A stretch of DNA of 22,957 nt from a virus. Location: positions 1-22,957 of IMG/VR virus record IMGVR_UViG_3300048904_000067. One strand, written 5' to 3'. Below the pieces are notes generated by a model. That model had not been told where the DNA came from, ran no database searches, and saw only the letters and a list, made by a program, of their open reading frames with translations. Positions within the stretch are counted from its first letter, which is position 1, and each line of letters starts with the position of its first letter. Positions 2,888 to 19,221 of the stretch are shown piece by piece. The translations under genes were made by a program, and so were the position numbers.

Positions 2888-5740
2888 ATGGCAGACGTTA
2901 ACATTGTCTCAAGACTGCCTCGCGTTGTAGTGCAGAGAATAAGTGAGATAGGAGCTATAAGGAGAATTATTCCTTATGGTGCCCCTCCAAATTTTTATAT
3001 TTATGCAGACAAATCAGACGACATTTCTGTAAATGATCAAATTGAATACTTACCCCAAGGTTCCTATGGGAAGTTTGTAAGTGTAAGAAATAAAAAAGTA
3101 ACACCTGTCAACTTCCCTCCTGAAATTACTACTAAGATTATCACTGAAATAAGCCCAGTGATTAGCATTATAGTTCCTGCATATTATAACGTTACTATAG
3201 AGACCTCTACTCTTACCTTCAGTGGCAAGGCGGCCTCTTTTACTTGGAAACTGCTTAAGTTGCCATTGGCAACCGGTTCTATTCTTTTATCTGGCAAGAG
3301 TTTAGGTCTTGTTAAGTCCAAGACTTTGTCTTTAGCGAAAGCAAACCTTACTTTTTCTGGCAAAAGTCTTTCTGGTGCTCTATCTAAAAAACTCCAGTTA
3401 TCTACAGGCTCCAGTGCCTTTTCTGGCATTTCTCAAACACTTAACAAAGGTGGTAGAATAATTTTACCAGCCAAAGGAACTATTGCTCTTTCTGGTAAGT
3501 CTGCTGGATTAGCTGTGGGGAGAAAATTAGCATTTAGTAAACAAGACATTTCTGTTGTCGGCAGGAGCGTTACATTAACCTCAGGAAGTTTACGTAAGAT
3601 TACTGCAACAAAGAAAGATATTTTACTATCTGGCCAAGCTATTCCTGATTTGCCTGCTGCGGGAAATCTTTTCACAGCTTCCTTCGGAAGTTCCGTTTCT
3701 CCATTTACTCAAAAAATTCTATCGACAACGACGCCATATTACACTTTAAGCAATGCTACGGTCGTAACAGGCTTTTTTAGTGGTGCTGCCAGAATAGTTG
3801 CAGATAGCGGCACTGGAATAGTAAATCCTCTTTTAAGTTATCAGCTTTCTGGTTTGATTCCGGGACAACAATACAAAGTAGACGTGGTATTTTCTAATAA
3901 TTCTGGTATAGCAATTGTTACTGCCGATACAGATCAAAATACCTTTAATGATGCTGGAAATTTTAATCAATTAAATAGGATTATGACAACCAATTCTTCA
4001 GGAACTTTGACACTTGTATTTATAGCCTCTTCTGTAAATTATTTAAGAGTTGGTTTGGCAGGTGGAAGCGGTAGTGTCGATATAGCCTCCGTTACATTAA
4101 CTCGCTCATTTGCAGGCAATTTACTTTCTGGAAAGTTCTGGCGTACAGATGGGCGAGGGATGTTCTCTGATTTCCTTTCAAGTTATGATGACAGAACTTC
4201 AACAAATTGGAGAGGTTTTTTAGGCTCAGTTGTAAGTGATACATCTAATGTAACTCAATTTGATAATGCACTTCAAGCTAGGGCTGCACTTATAGGACAG
4301 GCGGCGCAAAAGGAAGGAATACAGGCAGTAATTATTTGGGATTTATGTGGATCAGAATTTAGACATACTACTCAATATATTGGTGCGCCAGACGAATTAG
4401 CCGTTTGGGCGCCCGAAATGTTGCAGACTGTTGGTGGGGTGACAATTGTTAAAAGATATATTGATAAATTGAAAAGTTATGGTTTAAGAGTTGGTGTTTG
4501 TTTGCGTATTCAAACAATTCCCCGTGGCACTACCTTACCAACTATTCCTGCTGCTGGTATATATAATTTATATCCATTTGTTAAAACAAATAATCCCTTA
4601 CATCAAAGGATGATGGTTGCCTATGAAAGTCCTCCAGGAACTTGGGGATGGTATGATTGGGAGTCAGCGCATCCTGATGATGGCGCTGGACAATTAAATG
4701 TTTCTACTAGTCAAGACAAGTTAGATGCAAGACAGAGAGTAATTGATAGAATTACTTACTGTAAGAATACTTGGGGAATATCAATATTTTATGTCGATAC
4801 GACCGTTTGGGAATATGGCGATCCGATAGAGACAATAGGTTTTTGGGATGTCATCCAAGCTGCCCACCCAGACGTTATGATATGTCCAGAAAATGAAACA
4901 TGGGATGCTTATAATTACACTACACCATATGGAGAGTTTAGGATTGGTGATTTATCCCCTGGAGGAGGAGGCTTTTTCCCGGACAATCCACAATCCCAAA
5001 TGCTATTGAGTATTGCTCAGGGGCCGCAAGATTATTATCATTATTCTAGAGACAACTTACAAAAGCAATATCTTGCTAGAAAAATCACTCCATTGGCCTT
5101 TTGGGCCGATCCTCTTGGTGTAGCAAGAATTAGAGACATTCGTGGCAATGTTCCGTGGCAGACTAGCGTTGCTTGGGACCCTAATAATGCTGGCAGTGGA
5201 ATATATACATTATCGAATAGCAATCTAACTGCTACTGTTTCTGGCCAAGATTCAGTTTATAATACTATTAGGGCACTTGGTCCTAAACTTTCTGGAAAGT
5301 GGCACGTTGAATTTGAACTAATTATCGTTGCTAGTGGAGCGCACTTTGGATTAATTTCTGAAACAGACTCTTTAGATATTTGGATAGGAGCCACTCGTTC
5401 AATTGGTGTTTATAACAACGATGTTTGGTATCAAGGTAATCAATACTTTACTTTATCTCCTGGCTCAATATCTAATGGTGTTAGGGGTGTTATTGAAGTT
5501 GATTTGACTTTAGCAACTCCAATGTTTTGGGTTGCTTTTGGAGCAGGCGGAAATTGGAACAACAATTCATCTGCTAATCCTGCTACTGGTGTTGGAGGAT
5601 ACGGAATTGAAACACTGAACGGCGGGCCTATTTATCCAGCTTTTAATGGATTTAGAATTGGAAATGGATGCACAATTAAGGCGAAGCTAGTTGACTTTAT
5701 TAGGTCTCCAAGTTCAGGATTTAGTCCTTGGGGAATATGA
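2888..5740 (+). CDS. Spike/fibre-like protein with repeat array, glycoside-hydrolase-like barrel and SPRY-like C-terminus (950 aa)
   Basis: Start supported by AAAGG 8 bases before ATG. Architecture read from the translation: a short N-terminal domain (about 1-105); seven 22-24 residue repeats each containing S-G-K or a variant (about 110-250); a beta-sandwich, carbohydrate-binding-like domain (about 258-405); a TIM-barrel-like region (about 415-750) with AVIIWDLCG, RVGVCLRIQT, IFYVDTT (Asp637) and ICPENET (Glu668), compatible with a GH-D/GH31-like active site; and a SPRY/concanavalin-like domain (about 758-940) with GKWHVEFE, HFGLIS and YPAFNGFRIGNG. I infer a virion-attached receptor-binding or glycan-degrading protein. 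Its position between portal and MuF is unusual for a tail spike, so it could decorate the head or neck. Domain identities are by eye. Confidence 0.7.
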   Translation: MADVNIVSRLPRVVVQRISEIGAIRRIIPYGAPPNFYIYADKSDDISVNDQIEYLPQGSYGKFVSVRNKKVTPVNFPPEITTKIITEISPVISIIVPAYYNVTIETSTLTFSGKAASFTWKLLKLPLATGSILLSGKSLGLVKSKTLSLAKANLTFSGKSLSGALSKKLQLSTGSSAFSGISQTLNKGGRIILPAKGTIALSGKSAGLAVGRKLAFSKQDISVVGRSVTLTSGSLRKITATKKDILLSGQAIPDLPAAGNLFTASFGSSVSPFTQKILSTTTPYYTLSNATVVTGFFSGAARIVADSGTGIVNPLLSYQLSGLIPGQQYKVDVVFSNNSGIAIVTADTDQNTFNDAGNFNQLNRIMTTNSSGTLTLVFIASSVNYLRVGLAGGSGSVDIASVTLTRSFAGNLLSGKFWRTDGRGMFSDFLSSYDDRTSTNWRGFLGSVVSDTSNVTQFDNALQARAALIGQAAQKEGIQAVIIWDLCGSEFRHTTQYIGAPDELAVWAPEMLQTVGGVTIVKRYIDKLKSYGLRVGVCLRIQTIPRGTTLPTIPAAGIYNLYPFVKTNNPLHQRMMVAYESPPGTWGWYDWESAHPDDGAGQLNVSTSQDKLDARQRVIDRITYCKNTWGISIFYVDTTVWEYGDPIETIGFWDVIQAAHPDVMICPENETWDAYNYTTPYGEFRIGDLSPGGGGFFPDNPQSQMLLSIAQGPQDYYHYSRDNLQKQYLARKITPLAFWADPLGVARIRDIRGNVPWQTSVAWDPNNAGSGIYTLSNSNLTATVSGQDSVYNTIRALGPKLSGKWHVEFELIIVASGAHFGLISETDSLDIWIGATRSIGVYNNDVWYQGNQYFTLSPGSISNGVRGVIEVDLTLATPMFWVAFGAGGNWNNNSSANPATGVGGYGIETLNGGPIYPAFNGFRIGNGCTIKAKLVDFIRSPSSGFSPWGI
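3221..3661 (+). repeat. Seven-unit SGK repeat array within the spike-like gene
   Basis: Degenerate tandem repeats whose S-G-(K/Q/I) codons (VGR in unit 6) start at 3221, 3290, 3356, 3422, 3491, 3557 and 3629. The spacings are 69, 66, 66, 69, 66 and 72 bases, or 22-24 residues. The consensus is roughly (F/L)SGK(S/A), a hydrophobic pair, then a basic and a hydrophobic segment. The units are diverged at DNA level, so this is an old protein repeat and not a recent expansion. Repeats of this kind usually form an elongated beta stalk in virion proteins; that role is inferred. Confidence 0.75.
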
Positions 5741-14556: not shown

Positions 14557-15009
14557 ATGGCAAGCTATTCTTTCGCTGATGTAATAGCAACCATAGTAGC
14601 TCCCGCTGGCAACATAACGCTGGCGGGAGATACTAGCGGCGCTGTTGCGGATGAAGGAATATCAGTAGAAAAAGCCGAAGACAGAAACACTATGATGGTG
14701 GGATGTCAAGGCGAGATAATGCACTGTAAACACGCAGGAGTTAATGGCGTCATCAGAATACGATTACTTAAGACAAGTTCTAATAACGGTAAGCTAATGA
14801 ATCTTATGAATTCATTAGACGGAGATATGTGGGGCATTGGTCAATTCTCTATTCGTGATCGTGTTAAAGGTGATGTTATTACTGCTGCTGAAGTCGCATT
14901 TACTGGTCCGCCAACTATTGTTTACGGCAAACTTGGTGGAATACAGGAGTGGACTTTTCATGCCGGCTTTATGAGTGCAATGCTTTACGCAGGCTCACCT
15001 ATCAAGTAA
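14557..15009 (+). CDS. Tail tube protein paralogue 1 (DUF3277)
   Basis: A 150-residue member of the DUF3277 tail-tube family: MASYSFADVIATIVAPAGN, EGISVEKAEDRNTMMVGCQG, IRIRLLKTSSNNGKLMNLMN, VAFTGPPTIVYGKLGG and IQEWTFHAGFM. Tube proteins stack as hexameric rings inside the sheath. ATG lies 2 bases past the sheath stop, with no Shine-Dalgarno (ACCGATAAAA), so translation probably depends on reinitiation and should be weaker than that of the following paralogue. It retains the whole fold and is not a pseudogene. It may be a minor tube or initiator ring, or a functional duplicate. Confidence 0.85.
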   Translation: MASYSFADVIATIVAPAGNITLAGDTSGAVADEGISVEKAEDRNTMMVGCQGEIMHCKHAGVNGVIRIRLLKTSSNNGKLMNLMNSLDGDMWGIGQFSIRDRVKGDVITAAEVAFTGPPTIVYGKLGGIQEWTFHAGFMSAMLYAGSPIK

Positions 15010-15029: not shown

Positions 15030-15488
15030 ATGGCAAGCTATAGCTTCAAAGATGTTGGCGCTTCCATCGCCGGTCCTGGCGGAAGCATCAACCTTGGTAT
15101 GGGTTCCGGCGCTGCTGAAGAAGGAATTACTTTCGAGCGCACGGAAGATCACAATACGATGGTTACTGGTGCTGATGGCGAAGTAATGCATTCCTTACAC
15201 GTTTCCGATTCCGGAAGCATTAGGGTTCGATTACTGAAGACCTCGCCAATCAATGGTCAATTACTTAATATGTACAAGGCGCAACGCGCATCTGCTTCGC
15301 AATGGGGACAGAATGTTATTTCTGTTCGCGATTTCGTTCGTGGCGATAAGATGGTTGCGAGCGTCGTGTCATTTACTGGGCCTCCAAGTCTTTCTTTTGG
15401 AAAGCTTGGTGCAGTTCAGGAATGGCTGTTTCATGCGGGCCATATTGATCCAACGCTTGATGCTGGCGTTCCTCCCCCGACTATTTAA
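15030..15488 (+). CDS. Tail tube protein paralogue 2 (DUF3277), probably the main tube protein
   Basis: A 152-residue protein with the same blocks as the preceding gene: MASYSFKDVGASIAGPGGS, EEGITFERTEDHNTMVTGAD, IRVRLLKTSPINGQLLN, VSFTGPPSLSFGKLG and VQEWLFHAGHID. The two share their N-terminal MASYSF and RLLKTS, FTGPP, YGKLG/FGKLG and QEW.FHAG blocks but are clearly diverged over the rest. AGGAGAAAG lies just upstream of ATG, by far the better initiation site, so this is the likely major tube subunit. It is followed by the long hairpin over the start of the tail assembly chaperone. Confidence 0.87.
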   Translation: MASYSFKDVGASIAGPGGSINLGMGSGAAEEGITFERTEDHNTMVTGADGEVMHSLHVSDSGSIRVRLLKTSPINGQLLNMYKAQRASASQWGQNVISVRDFVRGDKMVASVVSFTGPPSLSFGKLGAVQEWLFHAGHIDPTLDAGVPPPTI

Positions 15489-15497
15489 CACTTGATC

Positions 15498-15565
15498 GAA
15501 ACGCCAATGAGCGCTAAAGTCTTTAGCTCTACTTTGAGAATGGAGACTTGCGCTCATGGCGTTTC
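15498..15565 (+). promoter_or_regulatory. Long hairpin sequestering the tail assembly chaperone start codon
   Basis: Left arm GAAACGCC-A-ATGAGCGC-TA-AAGTCT (15498-15522) pairs with right arm AGACTT-GCGCTCAT-GGCGTTTC (15544-15565): 8 + 8 + 6 = 22 Watson-Crick pairs with only two bulges (A15506; T15515-A15516) and a 21-base loop. The ATG at 15556 is inside the stem and the Shine-Dalgarno GGAG (15542-15545) straddles loop and stem. A competing hairpin GCTAAA-GTC-TTTAGC (15513-15527... arms 15513-15518 and 15522-15527) uses the left arm and would release the start. It looks like a translational switch. Trigger unknown. Confidence 0.7.
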
Positions 15566-16080
15566 TTAAAATCAATGATGTTGAATATAGGACCGATACC
15601 CTTGATCTTCGTGAACAATTGCATGTAGCGCGCCGATTGCATCCGATTGTTGGTGCAATCAAAGAATCGTTCATGCGAGGTTCTATTTTCTTGCTCAAGT
15701 TTGGGCAGAAAACTGCTGAAGCTTCTAATCCAGAAAATAGCGATCCTGATGCTTCAGACAAGCCAGAACAGGTTACATTAAAATTTGAAGAATTCTTGAA
15801 TGAGATTGATGCAATTGAGCCATTTACTACGGCTTTAGGCAAGATGTCTGATGAAGACACAGATTACATTATGAGCAAATGTCTTGCCAAGTCTTATAGG
15901 ATCAATAGAAATCCAGCAACCGGAGAAGTTGTTGGTTTGCATCCTGTTGTTGATGCAAATGGTCGAATGATGTATGATGACATCAAGCTTGATACTGCAC
16001 TTCAACTAGTATGGAGCGTTGCGAGCGAATCGCTCGGAAATTTTACCTCCGTCAACCGCTTATTCCAGCAGACTGGTTAG
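15556..16080 (+). CDS. Tail assembly chaperone, short form
   Basis: A 174-residue protein; ATG with GGAG 10 bases upstream. It has the size, position (between tube and tape measure) and overlap with an ORF in the -1 frame expected of the G/GT-type chaperones that coat the tape measure during tail assembly. The sequence starts MAFLKINDVEYRTDTLDLRE and continues HVARRLHPIVGAIKES, a charged linker (PENSDPDASDKPEQ), FTTALGKMSDEDTDYIM and LQLVWSVASESLG. No enzymatic motif is seen. The slippery heptamer at 16038-16044 shifts a fraction of ribosomes into the downstream frame to make a 255-residue long form. Expression is probably also controlled by the hairpin over its start codon. Confidence 0.82.
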   Translation: MAFLKINDVEYRTDTLDLREQLHVARRLHPIVGAIKESFMRGSIFLLKFGQKTAEASNPENSDPDASDKPEQVTLKFEEFLNEIDAIEPFTTALGKMSDEDTDYIMSKCLAKSYRINRNPATGEVVGLHPVVDANGRMMYDDIKLDTALQLVWSVASESLGNFTSVNRLFQQTG

Positions 16081-16335: not shown

Positions 16336-19221
16336 TTGGCCGAAACAATTCAAGACTGGATTATTTCGCTAAAATATCAAGTCGATGAGCAAAGCGCGCG
16401 TCGGGTTGAGGATATCGCGCGCCGTCTTCGCGCCGGGCAACAAGTAACCTCGCAGGAAATGCGAGAACTTGAAAAGGGGATGAAAGGGCTTGCAAGCCAG
16501 CACGAAAAATCAATGCGACAAATGTCGCAAAGCACTCAACAGCACGGTCAAAAATTCAGCACTGTAGTAAATCAAGTAATTCATCCCTCAATTGTAAAAA
16601 TTACTGCTGCCCTTGGCGCTCTTAGTACCGCCGTTGGTGGATTCAAAGCATTTGAAGGTGTTGTTAAGAACTTACAACAAGTTGGCGATCTTTCTCGTGA
16701 TCTTAACGTTACTGCGTTAAGCTTAAATGCGCTTGACAAATCTCTTCAAAATATTGGCGCAAATCGAGGAACAGCTGCTAGCTTAGTCACAACGCTTCAA
16801 GATGCGGTTCAAAGAAACCGCGGAAACCTTGTCTTGTTGCAAGGCATGGGAGTTACTGCCCGAGAGAATGCAGAAAGAGTTATTGAGCTTTCAAGATTTG
16901 TTAAGCGCGAAGCTGCTGCTAATCGTTTTGATATTGCTGTCCAAAGACTTGCTGAAATTGGCTATAGCGTTGCTGATGCTAGGAGATTGCTCGCCTTAAG
17001 CGAAGAAGATTATAGACGACAACAAGGAATAAGAAGAAGATGGAAACAAGATTCTGCTGATGACATTAAAGCTGCCCAAGATTTAAGGAGAGAATGGGGC
17101 GATTTAATGTCGAACATGGAAGGCGTTCAAGACGCCATCTTTGTTCCGATGATGAAAACAACTGCAAGATTGATCAAGGAAGTAAACAGTCTTATAGCAG
17201 GACACGAAACCGAAATCCGAGCTTTCTTTACGGCCATTACCGAACCAATAGGTCAATGGGCCGAAGGAAAAGCAAAGGATATGCTAGACTATATGAAAAA
17301 GTTGACGGGGGACGAAGGGGCACAAGAGCGCGCTGCTTGGGTAAAGTGGTGGCAAGATACAAAGAAAGAAACTAATGATGTTGTTAGAGATGTTTTGACC
17401 ATTGTTCATGGTGTATCTGAGGCAATTCAATTACTTAGTAAGCTTAATAGAGCAAGAAGAGAGAATATTGAGCGGGTAGAAAACGAAGAAATAGATAAAG
17501 CTGAATCGCGTCGTCGCGATCAACAAAGAGATTATAGGCCCGGAGTAGCAGGTGAACGGGTTCCTGCAAGACATAGACCATATACTTTTATTGAAAGGTT
17601 TATGCGCCATCTCCCTGGCGGAGAGGAGATGGTTCGTACAAATAGAGAAATTGCTGAAGTTAGAGAAGCCGAAGCTGCTGGTGCATCTGCTGCGCCTGCG
17701 CCTGTAATAGGTCACGGAAGATTAGGTGGAGCTGTTGGTGCGACTAGCGTAATACAACAGCAAAAATTACAAGAAGAGGAAGTTAGAGTAACTAGAGATA
17801 ATACTGAAGAAATTAAAAAGAATACACAGGAATTACAAGAACAGCGTCGTTCAAGGGGTTTCTTTGGTACTGCTTGGGATCAAATTAAGAATCTTGTTGG
17901 AATGGGTGGTGGTGAAGGTCCGCCCGATATTAGTGGGCGTGGTAGTGCTGGTGGGGGCGGTATTGCTGGAGGCGGCGGCGGCAGTTCTGGCGATCCTGGC
18001 GCTGGCGCAATTGGCGGAAGAGTAGATCGTGGCGGATTTGAACCAAATCCCGCAGGGCATGTTACACCAACTAAAGGAAGCGCAGCAGTTAATTCTTGGA
18101 TGAATTTCTTAATGAAGCCAGTAAATCAAGGTGGTTTAGGATTTACTAGAGCGCAAGCTGCTGGCCAAGTTGCAAGTCTTCGTGGAGAAAGTGGATCAGG
18201 ACTAGAGGGCGTTTCTAGAACATGGAATGATCCATCTGGAAGTGGAAAACCCGGAATTTCTGGCGGTGTTGCTTCCTGGCGTAATGAACGTTTTCGTGCC
18301 TTACAAGCCCATGCTGCTTCTAAAGGTTTAGATTGGAGAAGTCATGAAGCTCAACAAAGTTTTTATAGAGAAGAAATGCTTGGAAAGTACAGAAACGTTT
18401 ATGATAATCTTAGGCGCTCTCAAACTGCCGCACAAGCTTTAGATGTGCATGTTCGTCAATTCGAGGCTCCTGCGCGTCCTGATCCAGCCATTGCACAAAG
18501 ATCAGGGTATTTAAATGATTTAATGAATAGGAATTTAAATGAACCTCCTAGCGCTTCTCAAGTAAGACAAAGAATTAGAGATATGCAGGGTGGAGAAGGG
18601 GCTGGTAGAATTGATACAAAGGGCGCTGATCCAAGAATTTCCGAAATCGTTGCTGCTGCACAAAAATATTTACCTCCTGGATATAAAGTAGAAACAACAT
18701 CTGGCTTCCGTGGAGGCACTAGACAGTCTTTTCATGGACATGGTAAAGCTAATGATTTTCATATTGTTGATCCACAAGGAAGAATTATTCTTAATAGAGG
18801 AGAAGACCCCACTGGTCTTTATCAACAATTAGCTCGTGGCGCTTATACTGAACAACTTAAAAGATATCCAGAACTAACAGGTAAATTTGCTTGGGGCGGC
18901 GCATTTGGAACGCAACTTGGTGGCGGTGGTGTAAGAGATTTGATGCATTTTGATCTTGGTGGCGAAAGAGGAAGATATGAACAATATCGCTTGAGTAATA
19001 TGGGTCCATTGCAAGCAATGGATAAAGCATTGAATAGCGCTCAACCGATATCGACTCCATCTAATATTTCTAATGATAATTCAAAGTCTGTTACTCAACA
19101 TAATGAGTACAAAACAACAATTAATGCCGAAGATGCTAAGGGCGCAGCAAGTATTTTCAAAGGAGCGGCCGAAAACATTAATCGTCTTAATATGAGCCAG
19201 ATTAAGGGAGTTATCAGATAA
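16336..19221 (+). CDS. Tape measure protein with tail-lysozyme and M15 peptidase domains (961 aa)
   Basis: Sets tail length and probably degrades peptidoglycan at infection. It starts with TTG, with AAGGA and TAGG upstream and no ATG available. Residues 1-75 are coiled coil; 85-105 hydrophobic (KITAALGALSTAVGGF); 105-500 long helical segments rich in Arg and Glu; 535-570 Gly-rich linker. About 580-700 resembles a phage tail lysozyme: AVNSWMNFLMKPVNQGG, AAGQVASLRGESG (probable catalytic Glu618) and VASWRNERF. About 730-880 is an M15-type D-Ala-D-Ala/endopeptidase: SFHGHGKANDFHI fits SxHxxGxAxD (Ser798, His800, Asp807), with DLMHFDLGG supplying His871. The end is a short helix (AASIFKGAAENINRLN). 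It overlaps the next gene in TAATG. Confidence 0.9.
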   Translation: MAETIQDWIISLKYQVDEQSARRVEDIARRLRAGQQVTSQEMRELEKGMKGLASQHEKSMRQMSQSTQQHGQKFSTVVNQVIHPSIVKITAALGALSTAVGGFKAFEGVVKNLQQVGDLSRDLNVTALSLNALDKSLQNIGANRGTAASLVTTLQDAVQRNRGNLVLLQGMGVTARENAERVIELSRFVKREAAANRFDIAVQRLAEIGYSVADARRLLALSEEDYRRQQGIRRRWKQDSADDIKAAQDLRREWGDLMSNMEGVQDAIFVPMMKTTARLIKEVNSLIAGHETEIRAFFTAITEPIGQWAEGKAKDMLDYMKKLTGDEGAQERAAWVKWWQDTKKETNDVVRDVLTIVHGVSEAIQLLSKLNRARRENIERVENEEIDKAESRRRDQQRDYRPGVAGERVPARHRPYTFIERFMRHLPGGEEMVRTNREIAEVREAEAAGASAAPAPVIGHGRLGGAVGATSVIQQQKLQEEEVRVTRDNTEEIKKNTQELQEQRRSRGFFGTAWDQIKNLVGMGGGEGPPDISGRGSAGGGGIAGGGGGSSGDPGAGAIGGRVDRGGFEPNPAGHVTPTKGSAAVNSWMNFLMKPVNQGGLGFTRAQAAGQVASLRGESGSGLEGVSRTWNDPSGSGKPGISGGVASWRNERFRALQAHAASKGLDWRSHEAQQSFYREEMLGKYRNVYDNLRRSQTAAQALDVHVRQFEAPARPDPAIAQRSGYLNDLMNRNLNEPPSASQVRQRIRDMQGGEGAGRIDTKGADPRISEIVAAAQKYLPPGYKVETTSGFRGGTRQSFHGHGKANDFHIVDPQGRIILNRGEDPTGLYQQLARGAYTEQLKRYPELTGKFAWGGAFGTQLGGGGVRDLMHFDLGGERGRYEQYRLSNMGPLQAMDKALNSAQPISTPSNISNDNSKSVTQHNEYKTTINAEDAKGAASIFKGAAENINRLNMSQIKGVIR

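Follow-up and report, generated by a model that had tools for sequence, protein, structure and literature searches.

A strong predicted RNA hairpin fills the spacer between the tail tube and tail assembly chaperone genes of an uncultured phage, enclosing both the chaperone start codon and its Shine-Dalgarno sequence. As judged from folding predictions and comparison with a relative, the RNA structure is real, conserved and oddly placed, and its functional type is a known one. It would act as a cis-acting, start-sequestering mRNA element that lowers chaperone relative to tube, a role to which we assign even chances.

The stretch of DNA analysed, referred to as the window, is IMG/VR record IMGVR_UViG_3300048904_000067 (22,957 bases), the flanking genome lying outside the record. 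Its gene order is that of a myovirus late operon, encompassing portal, sheath (DUF3383), a tandem pair of tube proteins, chaperone, an extension in the -1 frame, and a protein of tape-measure size carrying a lysozyme domain; the names tube and tape measure are based on family, order and size. Domain families bear out the gene identities given in an earlier note on this DNA, with PF11681 for the tube and Phage_TAC_15 (PF21822) for the chaperone. Position 15556 is a secure start for the chaperone, homologues beginning at the same alignment column. An alternative upstream start was rejected, given this agreement and the lack of any in-frame candidate upstream of 15556 in the ORF table of the window. 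The coordinates of the features are collected in Table 1.

The tandem tube paralogues (14557-15009 and 15030-15488) belong to the same Pfam family and are 49% identical, while the annotated phage relatives inspected carry a single tube gene versus two in the window. An in-frame slippery site, A AAT TTT at 16038-16044, is followed by a -1 frame ORF reaching 16322, constituting a frameshift of the G/G-T type; AAATTTT is present at the same place in the relative described below and in several other phages.

Table 1. Features at the tube-chaperone junction of the window and a structured RNA at the same junction in related genomes.
Feature	Position	Strand	Details
Tail tube gene	15030..15488	+	PF11681 KPP10_Orf10 / DUF3277, phrog_280; second of tandem pair
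Tail assembly chaperone gene	15556..16080	+	Phage_TAC_15 PF21822, phrog_1688; start codon within stem
Core hairpin and stop of bridging ORF	15498..15569	+	Arms 15498-15522 and 15544-15565
Extended imperfect inverted repeat	15482..15587	+	Tube stop region pairs with chaperone codons 6-11
20-codon ORF bridging the tube-chaperone gap	15507..15569	+	In tube frame; overlaps chaperone start by 14 nt
Small competing hairpin	15513..15527	+	6 pairs, 3-nt loop, -2.7 kcal/mol
Chaperone Shine-Dalgarno GGAG	15542..15545	+	Paired near stem top, 10 nt from ATG
int-alpA RNA match in tube-chaperone spacer	L007 2450-2512; also L151, L014, L008, L037, L172, L009

Predicted fold of the hairpin and burial of the chaperone start

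The stem arms of 8, 8 and 6 pairs described in the earlier note were confirmed at their coordinates. The first helix pairs 15498-15505 with 15558-15565 (8 pairs), followed after one bulged A by a second run of 8 pairs, which the folding program draws as 9 + 7 with 15507 bulged. The third pairs 15517-15522 with 15544-15549 (6 pairs) beyond a bulge at 15515-15516. The minimum free energy is -40.6 kcal/mol for 15491-15570 (z -8.6; dinucleotide shuffles) and -40.9 kcal/mol for 15490-15580 (z -8.0), with 0 of 200 shuffles folding as well in either case, so that the description of the pairing as far beyond chance stands. When the window is scanned in 100-nt stretches (1143 steps; mean -0.57, sd 1.34), no stretch has a lower z than the hairpin (-8.1), and the same is true (-9.9) of a 3781-step scan across the window phage and related phages. 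Outer helices, which the earlier note had missed, extend the stem by pairing 15482-15496 with 15571-15587, giving 43 pairs (-48.4 kcal/mol, z -8.9) between the tube stop codon and chaperone codon 11.

The chaperone ATG lies inside the stem, as had been claimed. The Shine-Dalgarno, formerly placed at the stem edge, is itself paired, with an unpaired probability of 0.03 or less, and the pairing probability is about 0.97 or more for both Shine-Dalgarno and AUG. The predicted cost of opening the chaperone start, defined as the energy to make -20 to +14 around it single-stranded, is 35.9 kcal/mol, whereas 24 other window genes need 6.7-18.3 kcal/mol. For the chaperone start of the relative it is 24.9 kcal/mol, and these are the two highest values among 161 related junctions (median 10.6). 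By prediction, a stable stem holds both start codon and Shine-Dalgarno, the defining arrangement of a start-sequestering hairpin.

An intrinsic terminator was considered and rejected, as neither a terminator nor a promoter was found in the hairpin region (the terminator scan being a simple one, for loops of 3-8 only) and, by eye, no U tract lies 3' of the stem. A mobile repeat of the REP/MITE-like type was likewise rejected, the hairpin being single-copy within the 22,957-base record. Elsewhere, an 18-base piece of the arm occurs only in the two contigs of the relative and, once, in an RNA-phage contig (L017), where it lies amid unrelated genes and is apparently a chance match.

Other structured stretches were observed in these phages. 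An imperfect inverted repeat at 14581-14660, within codons 1-35 of the first tube gene (-39.0 kcal/mol, z -5.9), is kept in L026 (-46.0) and L027 (-34.9). A strong structure at 17061-17160 (z -7.2), including a 17-nt inverted repeat at 17062-17111, lies in the tape-measure-sized gene. Acinetobacter phage BUCTT20 carries a z -8.1 structure at the end of its chaperone gene (L022 2961-3060), before the next gene at 3164, for which Rfam holds no match.

Conservation and the tube-chaperone junctions of the family

A homologous spacer was found in one diverged relative only, represented by two contigs alike in this region (IMGVR 3300015371_000109 and 3300015374_000443). Scans with the chaperone, tube, sheath and tape measure, and by alignment, returned none beyond these; the sequence of a further relative (L028, sheath 79%) stops short of the chaperone. 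Identity between relative and window is 99% in the tube and 84-90% in the chaperone. The core hairpin of the relative folds at -31.3 kcal/mol (z -6.3) and its extended stem at -36.9 kcal/mol, the outer repeat being mostly kept in L027. Within the 67-nt spacer, 4 of 67 sites are changed versus 34 of 99 fourfold sites in the coding sequence on either side (Fisher p = 1e-5). None of the 25 positions of the 5' arm differs (p = 2e-4 against fourfold sites). Three of the four spacer changes fall at unpaired positions and the fourth converts G-C to G-U, leaving no non-coding pair lost; two more changes, inside the chaperone coding sequence, break one pair each in the relative. The stem shows no compensatory double change because just two distinct sequences are known, to which the comparison is limited. 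The low divergence of the spacer provides evidence, distinct from covariation, that it is probably under constraint. The earlier note had made its proposal depend on conserved and covarying arms; conservation is seen in the sole relative with a homologous spacer.

Across the family, the tube-chaperone junction was located 180 times in prophages, phages and viral contigs, representing 152 distinct start regions. The gap is -4 to +15 nt at most junctions; close gene spacing is associated with translational coupling (PMC12548453), and the near-touching genes suggest such coupling in most relatives. The local-fold z is -7.4 in the window and -6.8 in the relative versus a mean near 0 over the 152 junctions. 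No other junction comes near the local structure of the window, the next best z being -3.0, and the vast majority of the family lack a start-burying hairpin.

Spacers are longer, at 99-115 nt, in a group of Photorhabdus prophages; a soil/Paraburkholderia group has 90-92 nt, and three single cases have 195-254 nt. The spacers of the two groups carry hairpins that leave the chaperone start free, with z of -2.7 to -4.4 in several Photorhabdus cases and -0.9 to -2.6 in the soil group. The soil/Paraburkholderia spacers match the Rfam int-alpA RNA (RF02996) at 30.7 to 38.1 bits, with five of the seven exceeding the gathering score (35.8), and their int-alpA-like fold shows double-sided changes at 4 of 25 predicted pairs. 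The hairpins of the three lineages are unrelated in sequence, and the spacers of the other lineages were not alignable with that of the window for covariation across the family. Structured RNA recurs at the tube-chaperone junction, with start burial peculiar to the lineage of the window.

The viral contig of L007 (IMGVR_UViG_3300047319_000093) holds a second, stronger int-alpA copy of 50.8 bits (L195), adjoining a portal-like gene, and other genomes of the same genus have up to five copies at other places. Among the Photorhabdus prophages, L041, L052, L055, L064, L065 and L057 display a strong stem-loop at about 2970-3040 in a 103-114-nt spacer, with one compensatory pair; others have differently built hairpins in this spacer, and no usable common structure was obtained among 12 Photorhabdus spacers. 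The Photorhabdus hairpin was not a multi-copy repeat in the genomes examined, a set that did not include the genome of the query itself.

Possible mode of action and alternatives

From the predicted strength, burial and conservation of the stem we infer translational repression. The hairpin would hide the chaperone Shine-Dalgarno and AUG, such that ribosomes would hardly initiate there unaided, and chaperone would be made only by ribosomes from upstream that open the stem, or on RNA still folding or cut. The frameshifted G-T product would be limited likewise, via the chaperone, with the outcome that a single late mRNA would yield much tube but little chaperone. The predicted burial is so deep that the start should be almost silent, and an efficient opening step would therefore be required. 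Start-burying structures opened by upstream translation are known from MS2 coat-lysis, f1 VII-IX and rpmI-rplT (PMC12548453). In the window, ribosomes that reinitiate at the tube stop, or read through it, and enter the 20-codon ORF crossing the hairpin might serve this purpose and could restore the coupling suggested for the rest of the family, a plausible guess that we consider unlikely on balance. In silico, a ribosome ending on the tube stop unpairs the stem base only. With the ribosome at the leader AUG, the chaperone AUG is released (unpaired probability 1.0 for the first two bases) but the Shine-Dalgarno only in part, and a ribosome in mid-leader leaves the chaperone AUG paired.

The ORF exists as described earlier, ending 11 bases past the chaperone ATG. 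It is an in-frame continuation of the tube gene past its stop, a point that had been missed, and the tube frame stays open for 26 further codons. The earlier note had built on it, and on the competing hairpin, a bistable switch controlled by a ligand or leader peptide. Both elements are present, and the predicted release of the chaperone AUG by a ribosome on the leader AUG speaks for such a switch. Bistability itself is unsupported because the alternative fold reaches about -2.7 kcal/mol against about -40 kcal/mol. The two exclusive folds of comparable stability that characterize a bistable switch or riboswitch were not found, and on these energies the competing hairpin can only be, at most, a transient folding intermediate until the 3' arm is made. 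Further against a switch, an ATG ORF of this bridging kind arises in about 12% of shuffled spacers, within chance; it has no Shine-Dalgarno; and although it is present in the relative too, its peptide differs there at three residues and is not conserved. Neither the Photorhabdus nor the soil lineage has a bridging ATG ORF. No Rfam family, int-alpA RNA included, matches the hairpin, and the suggested RNA or protein ligand finds no supporting evidence. Taken together, the switch is very improbable.

The position after the tube stop is common to the three lineages, which makes processing or protection of the tube mRNA the strongest rival to start sequestration. RNase III would cut the stem, or the stem would block 3'-5' exonucleases, allowing tube mRNA to outlive the downstream mRNA, with burial of the chaperone start secondary. 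RNase III accepts stems of about this size (22 pairs interrupted by small bulges), so in length the stem of the window would fit such a site. The Photorhabdus hairpins (z down to -4.4) and the int-alpA spacers of the soil/Paraburkholderia group do not cover the start, and these start-free hairpins of the two other long-spacer lineages fit a role at the tube 3' end better. In the window, however, the stem is shifted so that it covers the start of the gene downstream, needless for a pure stabiliser, and the hairpins of the lineages share no sequence; this explanation is somewhat unlikely. A functionless origin, in which an imperfect inverted repeat was perfected by template switching in replication, is consistent with the other strong imperfect inverted repeats of the phage (17061-17160, z -7.2; 14561-14660, z -6), with a tail of structured stretches somewhat heavier than in some relatives, and with the lack of compensatory changes between the two distinct sequences. 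It accounts poorly for a spacer far more conserved than the fourfold sites on either side, for changes that avoid pairs, and for the most extreme structure found being positioned exactly on a start, and is improbable.

The frameshift within the chaperone gene is the main known explanation of how tailed phages obtain hundreds of tube subunits, but few chaperones and tape measures, from a single late transcript. If start sequestration is true, the hairpin would be a second, upstream control on chaperone synthesis. More broadly, and tentatively, this myovirus family may repeatedly install different structured RNAs at the junction (the start-burying hairpin, the Photorhabdus stem-loops and int-alpA RNA), forming an undescribed stoichiometry layer above the G/G-T frameshift; we regard this as possible, well short of even. 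The recurrence of unrelated RNA structures would mark the junction as a site to look for such control in other phages, and it gives context for asking what int-alpA RNA does.

Comparison with known systems

The earlier note knew of no described case at this gene, and a search of the open-access literature, subscription journals being outside its scope, likewise found no described tail-chaperone hairpin. The closest likeness is the MS2 lysis hairpin (PMC12548453), in which a stem in phage mRNA also closes start codon and Shine-Dalgarno and upstream translation is the likely opener. In that RNA phage the upstream gene overlaps the hairpin, whereas in the window the tube stops before the stem and just the 20-codon ORF crosses it. 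The f1 VII-IX and E. coli rpmI-rplT pairs (PMC12548453) similarly place an inhibitory structure around the start of the downstream gene within a compact operon, the rpmI-rplT spacing of +52 being close to the 67 nt of the window. Coupling was shown there by experiment, for other genes, while for the window we infer it.

Within sister prophages, int-alpA RNA (RF02996) resembles the hairpin as a structured RNA in the tube-chaperone spacer, but its covariance model has no match in the window, and the two structures are not homologous by these tests. Tube protein is required in great surplus, with about 192 copies in lambda, a phage that controls its gpG:gpGT ratio as well (PMC5009743). The lambda G/G-T genes (PMC5009743) are of the same kind as the chaperone gene of the window, and both systems have a -1 slippery site; the control published for lambda is a frameshift close to the 3' end, whereas the hairpin of the window would add an upstream level.
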